This document shows positions 4,606 to 39,641 of a stretch of DNA of 64,000 bases, in pieces. The first letter of the stretch is position 1, and every line of letters starts with the position of its first letter. Below the pieces are notes generated by a model. That model saw nothing but the letters and a program-made list of their open reading frames with translations, ran no database searches and was not told where the DNA came from. Source of the DNA: Adineta ricciae. Taxonomy: Eukaryota > Rotifera > Eurotatoria > Adinetida > Adinetidae. The stretch spans positions 620,001 to 684,000 of the forward strand of contig CAJNOJ010000024.1 of NCBI GenBank assembly GCA_905250025.1. The letters run 5' to 3'. A program made the position numbers and the translations under genes.

Positions 4606-5658
<1,053 letters not shown>

Positions 5659-6076: not shown

Positions 6077-7208
6077 TCAACGACGAACATTATCTACGAG
6101 AAATTGATTCGCTTCAGTGATAACGTTTCGATTTGCCGGATATAGATTTACTCGAATATCAGTTAACGGTGGTACTGGCCGATTTTCTGATTGAATAGCT
6201 CGGTGTGACACGTATTTAGAAAGCAATTGTAGATAATAAAATGAAAGACAAAATTTCTTTCCAATATCGTAGATAAATGGAAATAGCAATGTTGAAGTGC
6301 CCGCTTTCATACCATTTTTTGTCGTTAAATGTACTAATCTATGAAAATCTGCGTGTAGAAAATCAAGAACTAAGAGTAATTTACTTGGTATTGATGAGTA
6401 GCGTATGCAGGGCTAGATGGATGTTTCGTGTGATTATGTAGACTTGTTCTTCATCCATTTCGAGACGTTGGAGTTTACCGGATTGGTGTAGGGAGACTTT
6501 GGAAGGCGAAGGTTTTTCTTGCTTCTTAAAAGTTTTAATTTGAGTATTTTGAGAGTCACTTTCAGATTGATATCCAGGTAATCGTTGGTTGTTATTCTTC
6601 GATTTGTACCTAAGAAATCGGCAAGAAGTCAGAAAAAGAAGTTATCCCTGAGCACAAATTACCTGGCTTGACGTTTAGTGGCAGTATTACACGTCGTATT
6701 TGCTTGTCCGTCGGTATTTCCATCGAACGTTGCTGCCATTTCCAGATCATCAAGATGACACTGAAGCTTGCCAACACTCGATTCAAGTAGTGGAACTGTT
6801 TGGAATATCAAATGAGGATAATGCTGAATGATATGCGCAATGTGGCGAACTTCATGTTTGAATCTATTCTCATCGAGAAAATGAAATCGAAATTTTCTCC
6901 AAAAATCTAATTTACCGGTACATTATCTTTCGTAATTCTTTGTGCAGTTCAACAACATCAGGTTCAACCGAGAGATGATGTCGAGTCGCACACATGTATG
7001 GTGCACGAATTTTTAGCATCTCATCATCTTCATTCAACTGACTACGAAGACGTAGTCCATTGATAGCTGTGAGAAATCGATAGACATAAAGAATGTTGAT
7101 AACCAAACGAATGATTCGAGAAGAAAATTGAACGATATCAGTAAGAAAATTCAGAGATACGCGAGGATTTTGTTTCGGTGCACAACCTTCGAAAGATTGG
7201 TGAATCAT
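6077..7208 (-). CDS. Conserved-looking protein of unknown function
   Basis: Four exons can be joined in frame. The first is 7208 to about 6914 (start MIHQSFEGCAPKQNP). The second, an exon with FKHEVRHIAHIIQHYPHLIF, starts at AG near 6864. The third is lysine-rich and polar (KSKNNNQRLPGYQSESD, then LEMDEEQVYIITRNIHLAL). The last (KNGMKAGTSTLLFPFIYDIG) ends FLVDNVRR at 6077. The protein is about 310 aa, mostly helical, with no signal peptide, convincing membrane segment or catalytic motif. I do not recognise the family. It lies between a DHHC transferase and PCNA, all on the minus strand. Good splice signals and strong codon structure across four exons make it a real gene. Confidence 0.7.
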
Positions 7209-32605: not shown

Positions 32606-35600
32606 GTAAGTAAACTTCTCATTTGCATTCCTAATAGACAATCTAATCTTCACATATGAAATGAGTTTTTTCCCACATGAGACAACATTTTGCTCCTTCA
32701 TACAAATAGATTCCAATCAGATGACCTCTGTACGATATCGGTATCTGTAGGAAAAAAAAAGAGATCATCAATTCTAACCGAAATATTGACATTCTCAATG
32801 TGACATCAGGAGATAAACATCGAAACGAGTTAATTATATCACTGGCAAAAAAAAACCATAGATAATGTAATCTGAATTTTTGTTTAATTTAGATAAAAAA
32901 AAAACTTATCTTTTTATTGATGTCCTTCATCTCGTAAGACTCGCGTCTTATTTTTCTGCGAGTCATTACCGTTATATCATCCTCTGTTTCTTTTTTTTTC
33001 TTTCTCTCCCTCTCCGCCGTCTTTTTCTACCGTCATATTGATAAGGTCATTGCCGGTAGCAAACCAAATACAACATATCAGTGTTCTTGACGACATTTGA
33101 ATCCAACAATCAATTGTTTATTTTTTCCTCTCGCTCTCGATCGATATTTGCGAGATGAGATCGATCAGGTATGATATGAAATCAATGCTTAATGGACCAA
33201 ACATTGTCCAGCATCAGAAAAGGAAAAAGAGACGAGAAAAAAGGAGAAGAAAATTCGCCTATGAAATATTGTTTCACCTGTAATAATCAATCTACTTTTC
33301 ACTTGTCGATTCTTTTTTCTCTTCGCTTCTTTTTTTCCTTTCCAGTCAATCATGAAACTATCTTTGTGTGCATCAATGTATTAAATACAGAGTCTTGTCT
33401 CCTTTTTTTTCTCCCGTACATTTATTCTACCTTCTTTTCCTTTGAAGCGTGAGGTACAATTGAAAAAGAAGAAATATTACGTCTGGTTTGTTTCGTTTGT
33501 TTGCATTCGATCTTATTTATCACCTGCTGTTTCTCTCATATCGTCATTTTGTACCTCAACGGAGTTAAACTTCGAAGGCTCTTTTTGCGCTTCACTCGCG
33601 TGAAAATAATATATCGCTCAGACGCTTGTTATCGCTCTTCATTATTCCATGCAAACGACTGTTTGATACACCCATACGTGTCCCTTTTTCTCGAACATAC
33701 TTCTTCGAATCTCGCATTCACGAATTCGTCTAAGATCAAACAATGGCATTTGGACAAATTTCATACCAAGCATCAACGAAACGTCAGAGACAACGATATC
33801 CCGAACAACATCGTTCGCGTTCATACGATGATTTACTAGCCGAGTAAGATATCTCGCAAACTTGCACGGTTTTTTCGTATATGCTTTCAACTAGAAATTT
33901 TCTTTCTTATTTGACGAGCGTGTAATATAGTGCGTAATTAAAAATGTGAAATGATTTGAGACCATCTACCGTTCAGTGTTTTTTTTACTTGTGTGCATGT
34001 AGACATAAATATATTATTGAGAATTAGAAACGAAATTTATTCATTTGTTCGATGGATTAGTTGAGAAAGGAAAAAAGAGAGAAAAATAATTAGAAACTGA
34101 CAATAAGGAGAACAAAGATGACATTTACAATGGTTACACTTGAGAGGTCATTGTATACATATATGGAGCGAATAAGAATAGAAATTCTCTATTTTGATTG
34201 TCTTTCTCCTTCACATTTTACTTGCGGTTTCACATTTGGAGGCAAGAAGAAAAAAAAGAGTGGAGAAAAGACATTGTCGTCGACGTGCTGCCTCGTCAAG
34301 TATCATTTCATCTGTTCGCTTGCGTTCGTATTTGCTAAGGCGAGTGTACATACATGAAAAAAAAAGAAATTCGAAAAGAAAAATACTAAATGAAAAGAAC
34401 GAAAGAAAGAAAAGAAAGAAGACGATGAAATGTTATTTTCTGTTGTTGATATATAAAATCATCATCTGGCCAGTTCATTTCTTCTTCTCTTCTTTTCATC
34501 GTCATTCTCTCGCATACTTGTGCTTACTATTGCTTCAAAGATACTTCGTACCGATTACATAGACAACGGCGATGACGACAGAAGCAAAAGTTGTACAGAC
34601 ACACGTTCACATTGAATAACTCTCTCCTATCGTTTCTCTTTGACTATCTTCCTCCTTCTTCTTCATACAAAAGACCATATACGCATCGGTATAGTTCATC
34701 TTACACTTTCGAGTATACTGAGTTATTATATAAGAAAAGAAGATTAGACAATGATTGCTGTGCAAAGTTCTGACATTGATTCAATTGGTTTTTCTGATTA
34801 TTACACTCAAACATTAGGACATAGCAGGTAAAACAAAGCGAAACAGACGAAAACTACATAGAAAAACGACATATTTTATATTGTTCAGTTATTCATCATA
34901 AGCAAAGATATAATTATTTTTTCCCATTGTGTACATAACGTACACATGTATTAAAAATCTAATTTCATCATACGCTTAATTAGAAAAAGGCTTGTCATAT
35001 GCTTATATAATTGAAGGTTTCATTAATCATAGAGTATGAACAGAATGAGAGAGTTGAACGTTGAGATCCATTCACAATATTGATTTCCTATTGATCTTCT
35101 ATTCGAAGGATATCCAATGGTGGTCCACCTGGGAGTGTACGGCAGCGTATGCGGCCAACGAATTGGTCTAGTTTAGGCAGCCTGAATAGTTTTGGTGAGT
35201 CAACCACCACTCCGCCATCGTCACAAGAACATACAGGTAGTAGCGGAAGCAATACAAATGGCAGTGGACAACAACGAGAAACACTACACAGCCGATTTGA
35301 CTTCAAGCAAACATTGGGTAAAGGTACATACGGTAAAGTGAAATTAGCGTTAGACAAACGAAAGAATGAACAAGTTGCAATAAAAACAATCAAAAAGTCT
35401 CGTATTGAAAATCCACACGATCTAGCCAGAATTCGACGTGAGATTGACTTTATGACAAGTCTCAATCATCCGTATATTATTCGAATAAAAGAAGGTAAGA
35501 AGACGACGGCGTCGCTCCGTTTTGTTTGCTTTGAAAAGAATGTCTTTTATTAGTTTATGAAAGTCGAGAAAAGATTATCCTTGTCATGGAATATGCGAGC

Positions 35601-38158
35601 GGTGGTGAATTATATGATTATCTCAATCGGATGAAACGCATACCAGAATCTCAAGCACGTGCGATTTTCCGACAAATTGTTTCAGCTGTTCATTTTCTAC
35701 ATAAAGTATAGCCAGCCGAGTAGAAGATTTTCCAAGGTCGTTAACTTCGCTTTCTTTTAGAATAATATTGTTCACAGAGATCTCAAATTAGAAAATATTC
35801 TAATTGATCATAATGGTGATATCAAAGTAAATAGAAAGAAAAACAGATCTATTTTGTGTAATGATCATATATAATCGTCTCGGTTTTCTTCTAGTTAGCA
35901 GATTTTGGTCTGAGTAACAATTGGTCACCACGTCGATTACTGTACGTTAGAAAAACTCTTCTTTTACGGATGTATGTGATCTTCTAGTTCTAAATAGGCA
36001 TACCTTCTGTGGATCTCCTTTGTACGCATCGCCCGAAATCGTTTCCGGTATTCCATACTACGGACCTGAAGTACGACGATTTCTTTTCACTTTCGCTTGA
36101 TAAAATCATGTGATCATTGACAGGTTGATTGCTGGTCATTGGGTGTATTGCTCTATACCCTTGTCTATGGTTCAATGCCATTTCAAGGTGGTGATTACAA
36201 TCGACTTGTACGGAATATAACATCAGGTGAATTCATTCAACCTCGTGAACAATCAGGTAATTAGATTTTTTTCTGTATTTCTATGAAATAGATATTAATC
36301 AATGAGCAAATACACACATATATATATATATATTTATATATAGAGAGAGAGCGATATGTGTGTACACATAGAAATATTGTCCTCTATCAGTCAGTATTCG
36401 AATCGATGTAGATCGATTCGGATAGTGTCAGATGTCAAAAGAGAATCGATTGATCCCTTCTCCACTTTTCGTATCATATTATTTCTTTAACAAATCGAAA
36501 ACGAAATCTATAGGCGCACTCGGTCTTATCCGTAAATGTTTAACGGTACTACCATCAAAACGTTTCACTGTTGATGATGTTGCCGCGCATTGGTGGGTTA
36601 ATCTTGGTTATAAATATCCACCCGTGCATTATTATTTGACGCCAGCAATGAAAAAAACTGGTCTCTTCATTCCATCCCATCTGCCCGCATTAACGTACAA
36701 TGAATCGAATGGCAACGCAGTAGACTCGAATTCGAAAACAGTATCATCATCAACACCTGGTTTCTCTCACCAATCAGTTCACAATGGTGACACGACAGAT
36801 AATTCAACGAAATGTCGACCATTAACGAATGGTTATCACTCAGTTCCTCGAACACATCGATTAAATAGCAATAGCGAACGAACTTCCAATTCAAGCCGAC
36901 GGACATCTAAAGAAAGACATCATGATACGACATCATCTAAATATCCTCCACGTATTTAATGATTGCTCTCGAAAGAAAAAGAATCTCAAATCATATTTTT
37001 GTTTTTTTTTCATTGTGTTTCTTTCTCTGTCTTTCATTTACTTCTTTGCCACATCTGAGACTAATCCATTCCTCTGCTTGAGCATGCGCGACTATAAACT
37101 GAAAACCCTTATTTGGTGACGGATTGCTATTTTTTAACATTTTTTTTCTATTTTATTTCATTAATATCTTAGGTGCATTTTCACTTATCCAATATTGCTT
37201 GAAACCAGACGCTAATACACGTGCTACAACAAAAGATATTCTTCGTCACGATTGGTTAGCTCACGGACCTGTTCTTTCAATTCGTTTGAGTACGACAACA
37301 ACATCCGCATCACAATCTATTCCCGACCAACCGAAAACCACCGATTACGACAAGATACGTTTACGACCCAAATCAACAATAGAAAAGTCCTTGTCACCAA
37401 CAAATTCCCTCGTTGAACTTGAACTACATACAAGTTCATTCTTTGATACAGCTCGATTACGTGATAAAACATCCGTAAACAAAGATCAACAACGACGTAA
37501 TCGAGTGTCAGCAATACCTATACCTACACGTTATCTTTCATCAAATAACAACAAAACAATTTCTTCCTCATTAACTCGTCCTGTCCAACGTCGACCAGTT
37601 AGTCTAACACTTGATGATCAACATTCCACAGATGATACATCGACCATACATTCGATTACTAGTCGACGTTCTCGACAAGTTGGATCTCCGACAACGACAA
37701 CATCAGGAACTACCGATCAATTTCAGCCACAACAATACTCTATACCTGCTCCATCAGATACATCACGTTATCGCTTCTCGACCGAATTAGATTCAGCATT
37801 AAATGATTTAAAAGCCACGGCAGGAATTTATAAATATGCTCCACCCAAGAAATCTGTTGCACCGAGTGTATTTACAACATCGACGATTAAATTTGCACCT
37901 GCACCTCTTCGACGAATGAATCCATTAAAAGATCAAGAAGATTCGTCTTCGCCTAGTACAGCACAGCTATTAAATACTCTAACCTCTAATTCGTCTTGTC
38001 ATGTTGACGATAGTATTAATCATGCTACTTCTACTACTAACAATAATAATCGACATTCATTTTTAACTTCATTTGAATTGCCAACCAAATATAATCCAGA
38101 TAAAAATCATTTGCTCGATGATAACAATAATTTCGTTTCATTAAAAGTATATGATTAG
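32316..38158 (+). CDS. NUAK-family Ser/Thr kinase with alternative first and last exons
   Basis: AMPK-related kinase, predicted to be activated by LKB1. The shared catalytic exons are 35109-35494, 35554-35705, 35761-35826, 35895-35941, 35998-36070 and 36124-36256, and all junction phases agree. Motifs: glycine loop [21 protein letters not shown] (ATP lysine), hinge [35 protein letters not shown]. The T-loop is [17 protein letters not shown] (the LKB1-site Thr), then [20 protein letters not shown]. These match NUAK1/2. Three upstream ATG exons each end in phase 2 and fit the acceptor at 35109. After 36256 (phase 1) either of two terminal exons completes the C-lobe. Tails are disordered and Ser/Thr-rich. 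Isoform usage is inferred from sequence only. Confidence 0.88.
33743..33843 (+). other. Kinase alternative first exon 1b
   Basis: ATG in good context (acaATGG), 33 codons plus two bases, then gtaaga. It encodes a basic, Gln/Arg-rich leader ([20 protein letters not shown], ending SYDDLLAE). Phase 2, so it splices in frame to 35109. No upstream acceptor would put it in frame behind exon 1a, which supports its use as a first exon. Confidence 0.55.
34751..34827 (+). other. Kinase alternative first exon 1c
   Basis: ATG, 25 codons plus two bases ([20 protein letters not shown], then TLGHS), donor gtaaaa. Phase 2 and joins 35109 as Arg-Ile-Ser-Asn. It is nearest the kinase body, with a 281-base intron. 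Confidence 0.55.
36257..36513 (+). repeat. Intronic TA microsatellite and GA run
   Basis: The intron before exon A is 257 nt, long for this gene. It contains an alternating ta/tata tract at about 36316-36344 followed by gagagagag, and an imperfect palindrome near 36398-36420 (cgaatcgatgtagatcgattcg). Such a structure could affect exon A choice, but that is speculation. Confidence 0.5.
36514..36959 (+). other. Kinase alternative terminal exon A (NUAK-like C-lobe end)
   Basis: Acceptor tctatag at 36513; phase 1 entry reads [20 protein letters not shown], then [14 protein letters not shown], the canonical NUAK ending of the kinase fold. A tail of about 100 residues rich in Ser, Thr and Asn follows, with a stop at 36957-36959. 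No AATAAA lies between this stop and exon B, so transcripts may run on and use the exon B 3' end. Confidence 0.7.
37173..38158 (+). other. Kinase alternative terminal exon B (second C-lobe end)
   Basis: Acceptor atatcttag at 37172, same phase 1. It reads [20 protein letters not shown], then [14 protein letters not shown], which is homologous to and collinear with the start of exon A. A disordered tail of about 290 residues follows, ending VSLKVYD. A protein carrying both exons would have the C-lobe end twice and would stop inside exon A, so the two must be mutually exclusive. AATAAA occurs at 38885-38890. Confidence 0.7.
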
Positions 38159-39641
38159 TAAGAAGAAATCTTTCGTTTGTTTGTTTGTGTTTTTTTTTCT
38201 TCATTTTCTCACTTTTCTGTGATATTTTCGTTTCTTTCCTCATCATTATCTTTCTTTCGCTTCATAAAAGACAACAACAGTAGTAGATGTTCGTACAATT
38301 CTTTGGCTCCTCTCCATTTTTTTTTATGTACATCTAATTATATTACGCGTCTTATCATTGATCTCTTCTTCCTTTGTTCTTTTTTCTGTTTATTTCAATA
38401 ACAGTTTTCGTGTGCTCATTCTTTTTCTCTCATTCAGATTGTACAAAGAAAAAAAGAAACGATATATATTGCTGCTATAAAAATATTTATTTCTGTGTGC
38501 GTGTATGTTCAAAGGTTGACTTTCGTTCCCTTTCTTCTTCTTCTTCTTTCTTTTTGTCTCCTTTTGTATAGTGTGAGAGTGAGAGTGAAGGCGTAAACCT
38601 TGAAGAAAACATAATAGAACAATTGTGTCATTTTGTGCCTTCTTTTTTTTTCATTTGAATACTTTAATTTTACATTGATAACAAGGTTAAGTTTATTATT
38701 GTAAAAGAGAACAATTTTCAAGGAGATTTATTCGAATAATCCATTAAAGTCATCAACGATATGTCGAATTATGAAAGTGCAGGAATCAAACGTATGCCGT
38801 GCCATCGTGCACTTTACTTAAACTTATCGCAAAGATATGCAACGAACTAATCTTCTTCTTGGTGGTTTTTTTTCTTCTGTTGACAATAAAGATCGTGTGT
38901 GACATAAGAGATCGCAATTGATTTTCACTTTTCATTTCTTGTCGATGAACAACAAATATAGACACGCGTAAGACAGTAGAAGGTCAAGAATTTGACAGAA
39001 GAAGAAAAAAAAACAGGACAATGGTTGATGACAACAACATCAAATTAAGTCTAGAGGTCGCTGGTGTTTCTCTAGAGAATCGACTAAAAACTGTTTCCGT
39101 AAAAAAAAATACAGATACACAGAGAAAAATGAGATCCAGTACGTATATGTATATCAATGCTCAGATTGATTTCGTCTATGTACATTGTTTTCTTGGAAAG
39201 AAGAACGTGACGTTATATACAGATGAGAAGGAGAGGTTTGTTTCAAACAAGAAAATCACTGCATCCGACGTCGAAAAACAAAACAGAAAACGTATAACAA
39301 CACCGAGCAAGTTGAGAATACAACAATATGTACGTACGAATGAGAAAGAGGAACACAATGTAGGAATATACAAAATAATCGAAGATTTTTTAATGTTTTG
39401 TCGACATGTTTAGCAAAAGTAAACCCATCAACAGCAACTGACAATTGGATATATTGTAACGAAGAAAAGAGAGAGAAAAAACAAACGTGAACACAATATG
39501 CGTCTTTTTTTCCTAGTCTATTTATACATATACATAGATAGGTGGAGATCTTTTGTTTTCGCTTTTTTTATTTTAACAGAATGCATTCTATTCTTTATTT
39601 GTTATTTATATCAATAAATAGATTATTGAAATAGAAATTAA
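38159..39641. other. Convergent 3' region between NUAK-like kinase and GTF3C2-like gene
   Basis: About 1.5 kb of T-rich sequence, probably the long kinase 3' UTR (AATAAA at 38885-38890). It also contains the minus-strand gene's 3' end. A plus-strand frame at 39021-39413 begins with ATG but is lysine-rich low complexity and is not called. Confidence 0.45.

Follow-up and report, generated by a model that had tools for sequence, protein, structure and literature searches.

Two alternative terminal exons that each complete the kinase domain in a putative NUAK-like kinase gene of the bdelloid rotifer Adineta ricciae

The stretch of DNA analysed here (the window) comprises 64,000 nt of the Adineta ricciae genome (contig C24:620001–684000), and genome searches covered the 130.5-Mb assembly of 1033 contigs. 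At positions 34751–38158 lies a NUAK-like kinase gene of nine exons, modelled from splice signals. Its features are given in window coordinates, with the evidence for each in brackets; the C18 copy is a second copy of the gene on contig C18, described further on.

34751..34827, + strand: exon 1, the first coding exon, from the ATG (length and phase the same in the C18 copy)
35109..35494, + strand: exon 2, start of the kinase domain (C18 copy; Pfam profile)
35554..35705, + strand: exon 3, kinase (C18 copy)
35761..35826, + strand: exon 4, catalytic loop HRDLKLEN (C18 copy)
35895..35941, + strand: exon 5, DFG region (C18 copy)
35998..36070, + strand: exon 6, activation loop (C18 copy)
36124..36256, + strand: exon 7, the last shared exon, ending in phase 1 at a single donor, CAG|gtaatt (C18 copy)
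36257..36513, + strand: intron 7, with a proximal acceptor that has a poor pyrimidine tract (acceptor scores)
36514..36959, + strand: alternative terminal exon A, with NUAK-like last helices (HWWVNLGYK), a short tail and a stop (C18 copy; Pfam; genome search)
37060..37122, + strand: block between A and B, partly conserved with C18 (30-column identity scan; hexamers)
37173..38158, + strand: alternative terminal exon B, with diverged last helices (RHDWLAHG), a long tail, a stop and a strong acceptor (C18 copy; Pfam; genome search)

The shared part of the gene, up to position 36256, holds 311 complete codons and one base, giving a phase 1 junction. Exon A, preceded by ...TATAG, adds 148 codons including the junction Gly and then a stop (36957–36959), and exon B, preceded by ...CTTAG, adds 328 codons, likewise counting the junction Gly, and then a stop (38156–38158), for predicted isoforms of 459 (A) and 639 (B) residues. 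The initial annotation had described a shared exon ending in phase 1 at 36256 and an AG ahead of both A and B, and on re-reading these exon coordinates proved exact; both exons also read as it had proposed, entering in the same phase, beginning Ser-Gly-Ala-x-x-Leu-Ile and ending in their own stops. The unrelated tails, which it had put at about 100 and 290 residues, count 112 (A) and 292 (B) residues beyond the first 36.

A complete Ser/Thr kinase domain is present, the Pfam Pkinase match running to the profile end in both isoforms. The shared part alone scored 239.3 bits with a match ending at profile position 210/263; joined to exon A it scored 252.6 bits and joined to exon B 255.0 bits, in each case reaching 263/263, which bears out the earlier proposal that the two exons encode alternative versions of the last helices of one kinase domain. 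Taken by itself, exon A gave no Pfam match at E≤1, whatever the family, and exon B matched only Pkinase, over the last 26 profile positions (E 0.17), so the evidence for domain completion lies in the joined reading. When aligned to solved kinases, the last helices of isoform A matched MARK and those of isoform B matched MARK and SIK3, and an Arg near the domain end aligned with MARK in both isoforms and with SIK3 in B. These matches indicate that A and B supply the same piece of the kinase fold in two versions, and one enzyme carrying both makes no sense.

The best solved relatives of both isoforms were MARK, SIK3 and Snf1/AMPK (best 60 of 2765 solved-structure matches), and no NUAK chain was found among these best 60. 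The window copy stood at 60 % (isoform A) and 58 % (isoform B) against an approximate sequence of human NUAK1, and at 47–48 % against MARK4 and 46 % against SIK3. The activation loop of exon 6 is one that we take to be LKB1-type. In vertebrate NUAK1, the tail carries GILK motifs for PP1 and docks a phosphatase; the GILK string was absent from all isoforms of both gene copies (4/4), although we did not take it as defining for NUAK. It is plausible that the kinase belongs to NUAK, and the similarity provides a strong lead, short of proof, as the assignment draws on characteristic motifs and on an approximate NUAK1 sequence.

Window ORFs from 10686 to 56001 (~45 kb) match contig C18:152463–194620, inverted but collinear, with many coding stretches in both copies (the comparison spanned 49.5 kb of that contig). 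This collinearity over ~45 kb marks the pair as an ohnologous block, i.e. a large-scale duplicate. The gene on C18 repeats the nine-exon structure of the window copy with unchanged phases, A again preceding B and both intact, and its terminal ORFs are open over 180 (A) and 419 (B) residues. Between the copies, dS was 1.04–1.32 by segment, and omega for the shared kinase part was 0.02. A dS of 1.0–1.3 for the collinear copies fits the KS of A. ricciae ohnologs, given as 1.27±0.146 alongside 0.61–0.70 for three other bdelloids (PMC5916493, excerpt), the methods differing. Conservation was assessed in this one genome; decay of one of the two exons in relatives, which the initial annotation had raised as a sign against its reading, was looked for within the genome, and both exons are intact in the ohnolog.

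Several features of the assembly were seen in the course of these comparisons. A near-allele on contig C472 covers the first 209 bases of exon A, where it differs at two silent positions, and the last 202 bases of exon B, where two differences each alter a residue; at C472:63197 (position 4698 of locus L009) a single N connects the middle of exon A to the exon B tail in one open frame. A true A–B fusion allele was rejected, as the join is a single N that we read as an assembly gap; such a join could make an automatic gene caller predict a false fusion protein. Upstream of the gene in the C18 copy (position 7168 of locus L010), a single N also stands between near-identical stretches of ~130 bases (judged by eye), probably a scaffolding artefact. 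TGTGGG, a telomere repeat of bdelloids, forms arrays in six contigs. In C261 the array is near a contig end; in the other five it is internal, as at C298:111255–111332 (locus L071) and C164:113357–113422 (locus L068), where it may be an interstitial telomeric repeat or mark a scaffold join. The 23-base rotifer leader, as given in an excerpt of PMC3795323, had no exact match (0) in the genome.

To score the splice sites, an acceptor matrix was made from the 12 constitutive acceptors of the two copies, a small sample with a leave-one-out range of −1.3 to 11.1. Acceptor A scored −6.8 in the window (0.35 pyrimidine) and −0.7 in C18 (0.53 pyrimidine), the latter within the constitutive range, where the weakest acceptors scored −1.3, −0.9 and −0.7; acceptor B scored 5.9 in the window and 8.0 in C18, so acceptor A falls below acceptor B in both copies. 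The donor at 36256/36257 would have two partners to pick from, the nearby acceptor of A, which is weak, and the more distant one of B, which is strong. Splicing to B would be the default, and A would be produced when factors assist its acceptor. The acceptor scores fit such a model, in which A is the regulated choice. The geometry is that of alternative terminal exons, or of a single long terminal exon with two acceptors in competition. The exons had initially been called mutually exclusive; exclusivity is indeed built in, because A has a stop and no downstream coding exon, but the term in its strict sense, referring to two internal cassettes, is not the geometry found here. A splice out of A into B may also occur, as there may be usable donors inside A, the best of them in C18: from the start of A to B, the two best donor-like sites of the window scored 5.7 and 5.6 and those of C18 scored 8.5 and 7.0, the 8.5 site falling inside the coding part of A; constitutive donors scored from 4.9 up.

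Neither AATAAA nor ATTAAA is present between the stop of A and exon B in either copy, which makes the 3′ end of A uncertain and means that A may share the distal 3′ end. Isoform A transcripts would be cleaved at a weak poly(A) signal ahead of B, or else would run on to a distal site shared with B, which would place the exon B sequence in the 3′ UTR of A. The block at 37060–37122 shares with C18 the strings ACTAATC, GCATG, TATAAA (CATAAA in C18), TTATTTGGTGACGG and TTAT(T)xGGTGA. STAR/QKI and RBFOX proteins recognise ACUAAY and GCAUG, and the TATAAA/CATAAA hexamer with its GU-rich follower presumably resembles a weak poly(A) site; it is possible, on these motifs, that the block is a splice enhancer or a polyadenylation site. 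Within 36960–37172, the best 30 columns held 23 identities with C18 (30 shuffles: mean 17.8, max 21), and the corresponding best values were 24 in the 300 bases upstream of the gene (shuffles max 22) and 28 in the 600 bases after B (shuffles max 22); beside these gene flanks, the block between A and B is unexceptional. Intron identities with C18 (0.43–0.61) lie near the shuffled means (0.45–0.49), so the introns have largely diverged. After exon B, the stretch 38471–38499 exceeds every intron in its conservation with C18 and holds GCTGCTAT(A/G)AAAATATTTATTT(C/A)TGTGTG, possibly representing a poly(A) region or UTR element.

Comparison of the ohnologs gave 30/36 identical residues in the kinase part of A and 28/36 in that of B, and tail identities of 40/112 aligned residues (A) and 157/290 (B). 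The pN/pS of the kinase parts was 0.22 for A (bootstrap 0.08–0.43) and 0.19 for B (0.07–0.39); in the tails it was 0.50 for B (0.41–0.61) and 0.75 for A (0.60–0.98), with 17/1000 bootstraps of the A tail at or above 1. These ratios indicate purifying selection on the kinase parts of both exons and on the tails, clearly in B and weakly in A, and the A tail is the weakest link. In a simulation of neutral drift by substitutions alone to a distance of 1.15, the ORF of A stayed open in 14/20000 runs and that of B in 0/20000. Both exons are very likely functional. The exon B tail also holds a 20-residue stretch that is identical between the ohnologs (37394–37453), a candidate docking or regulatory motif.

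The initial annotation regarded A and B as a tandem exon duplication, and they have the properties expected of tandem duplicated alternative exons, i.e. two adjacent homologous exons of the same phase, interchangeable by sequence, with conservation of both in relatives seen in the ohnolog. A query consisting of the kinase part of the C18 exon B, with four shared-exon residues in front, returned five matches in the genome at E≤10, namely the two B exons and three A exons (E 0.02–0.03), and no other kinase at that threshold; kinases are plentiful in this genome (at least 137 kinase-family matches, with 122 of 1312 candidates scored). This direction of the search upholds the duplication, but the reverse was less clean: a query with exon A gave seven matches, of which the three A copies were followed by the C18 exon B at 21.6 bits and, close behind, by three other loci at 20.0, 19.9 and 18.3 bits, and the window's exon B was not among the seven. 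Over a 31-residue block, A and B share 11–16 positions and differ in 15–20. It might be argued from this divergence that exon B did not arise by duplication of A but came by capture from another kinase gene through exon shuffling, and the best solved-structure matches of the C18 B segment do include CaMKII and AMPK, while the window's B shares 11 positions with the window's A and equally 11 with the approximate NUAK1 sequence. However, C18 A and B share 16/31 positions, vs 6–9/31 for either B with MARK4 or SIK3, and all the matches of the B query (5/5, E≤10) were B and A exons, and we regard capture as quite unlikely. Compared with the approximate NUAK1 sequence, A agrees at 17/31 positions and the two B exons at 11 and 13/31. 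These comparisons are best read as an old tandem duplication in which B, derived from A, would have diverged faster; A looks canonical for NUAK.

Both exons need not be in use, and the weak acceptor and weakly constrained tail of A are what would be expected if B were the only working end, in which case splicing to the near acceptor would give a minor or unproductive product, and the kinase-like start of A would be a weakly constrained relic. We consider this improbable, as the kinase part of A is constrained like that of B (pN/pS 0.22 vs 0.19), A is nearer than B to the approximate NUAK1 sequence (17/31 vs 11–13/31) and the ohnolog retains an open frame for A, an outcome that drift gave in 14/20000 runs. 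The converse, that A alone is a working end and B either a relic or an independent feature further downstream, could appeal to the more NUAK-like character of A, as judged against the approximate NUAK1 sequence, but has to contend with the strong acceptor of B, a 328-codon frame intact in the window, a frame intact in C18 and a B tail with a pN/pS of 0.50, making it very improbable.

We consider it likely that one NUAK-like gene makes two full-length kinases through a choice between anciently tandem-duplicated terminal exons. The gene would probably make two differently regulated kinases, for which we infer splicing, use and function. Isoform A, with its short tail, would be a kinase of the conventional NUAK type. 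Isoform B would be an active enzyme whose last helices are altered and whose long, conserved tail would dock onto different partners. Should both isoforms be produced, the gene offers a natural experiment on communication between core and tail in an AMPK-related kinase. A stronger form of this reading, which we offer tentatively, is that the locus is a switch older than the genome duplication of the bdelloid ancestor, in which two NUAK-type kinases differ by exchange of the last helices and the whole tail and the choice is regulated (e.g. by desiccation or stage) by conserved RNA elements between the exons; were such a regulated switch true, the last helices of an AMPK-related kinase would be an exchangeable module matching the catalytic core to its tails. 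As both ohnologs keep both exons at high dS, the copies did not split A and B between them, and the locus is well suited to the question of why exon duplicates are retained where gene duplicates could take over their role.

C. elegans UNC-82 is a NUAK kinase, and it and Drosophila NUAK (CG43143) are invertebrate NUAKs, as the kinase described here plausibly is. No comparable exon pair was found in excerpts of PMC7176095, and the pair was undescribed in the excerpts retrieved by a literature search on NUAK, kinase-domain exon swaps and bdelloid splicing (including PMC12220480) that took in few subscription journals. Elsewhere, mutually exclusive exons within the catalytic domain are reported for mouse Mapk14 (CSBP1/2) and apparently for Mapk9 and Mapk10 (PMC1431701, excerpt), and alternative exons within the kinase domain for FYN (PMC9741552, excerpt). 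As in Mapk14 and FYN, going by these excerpts, the alternative exons of the A. ricciae gene would swap part of a kinase catalytic domain; unlike those of Mapk14, Mapk9, Mapk10 and FYN, they are terminal and replace the whole tail too, and they cover the end of the kinase domain, whereas those of FYN cover its start. The acceptors would compete at the terminal exon as in VEGF-A, where alternative 3′ splice sites of the last exon lead to distinct families of isoforms (PMC5852594, excerpt), although a duplicated domain segment of the kind seen here is not described for VEGF-A in that excerpt. Among human tandem duplicated exon substitutions, 77/236 are C-terminal, including the 3′ exons of tropomyosin (PMC9741552, excerpt), and as in that class, duplicated terminal exons here would yield alternative homologous C-termini; unlike the tropomyosin class as there described, the homologous part ends the catalytic domain of an enzyme and the tails are unrelated. 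The kind of exon swap is known, and this well-conserved instance of it seems to be new.
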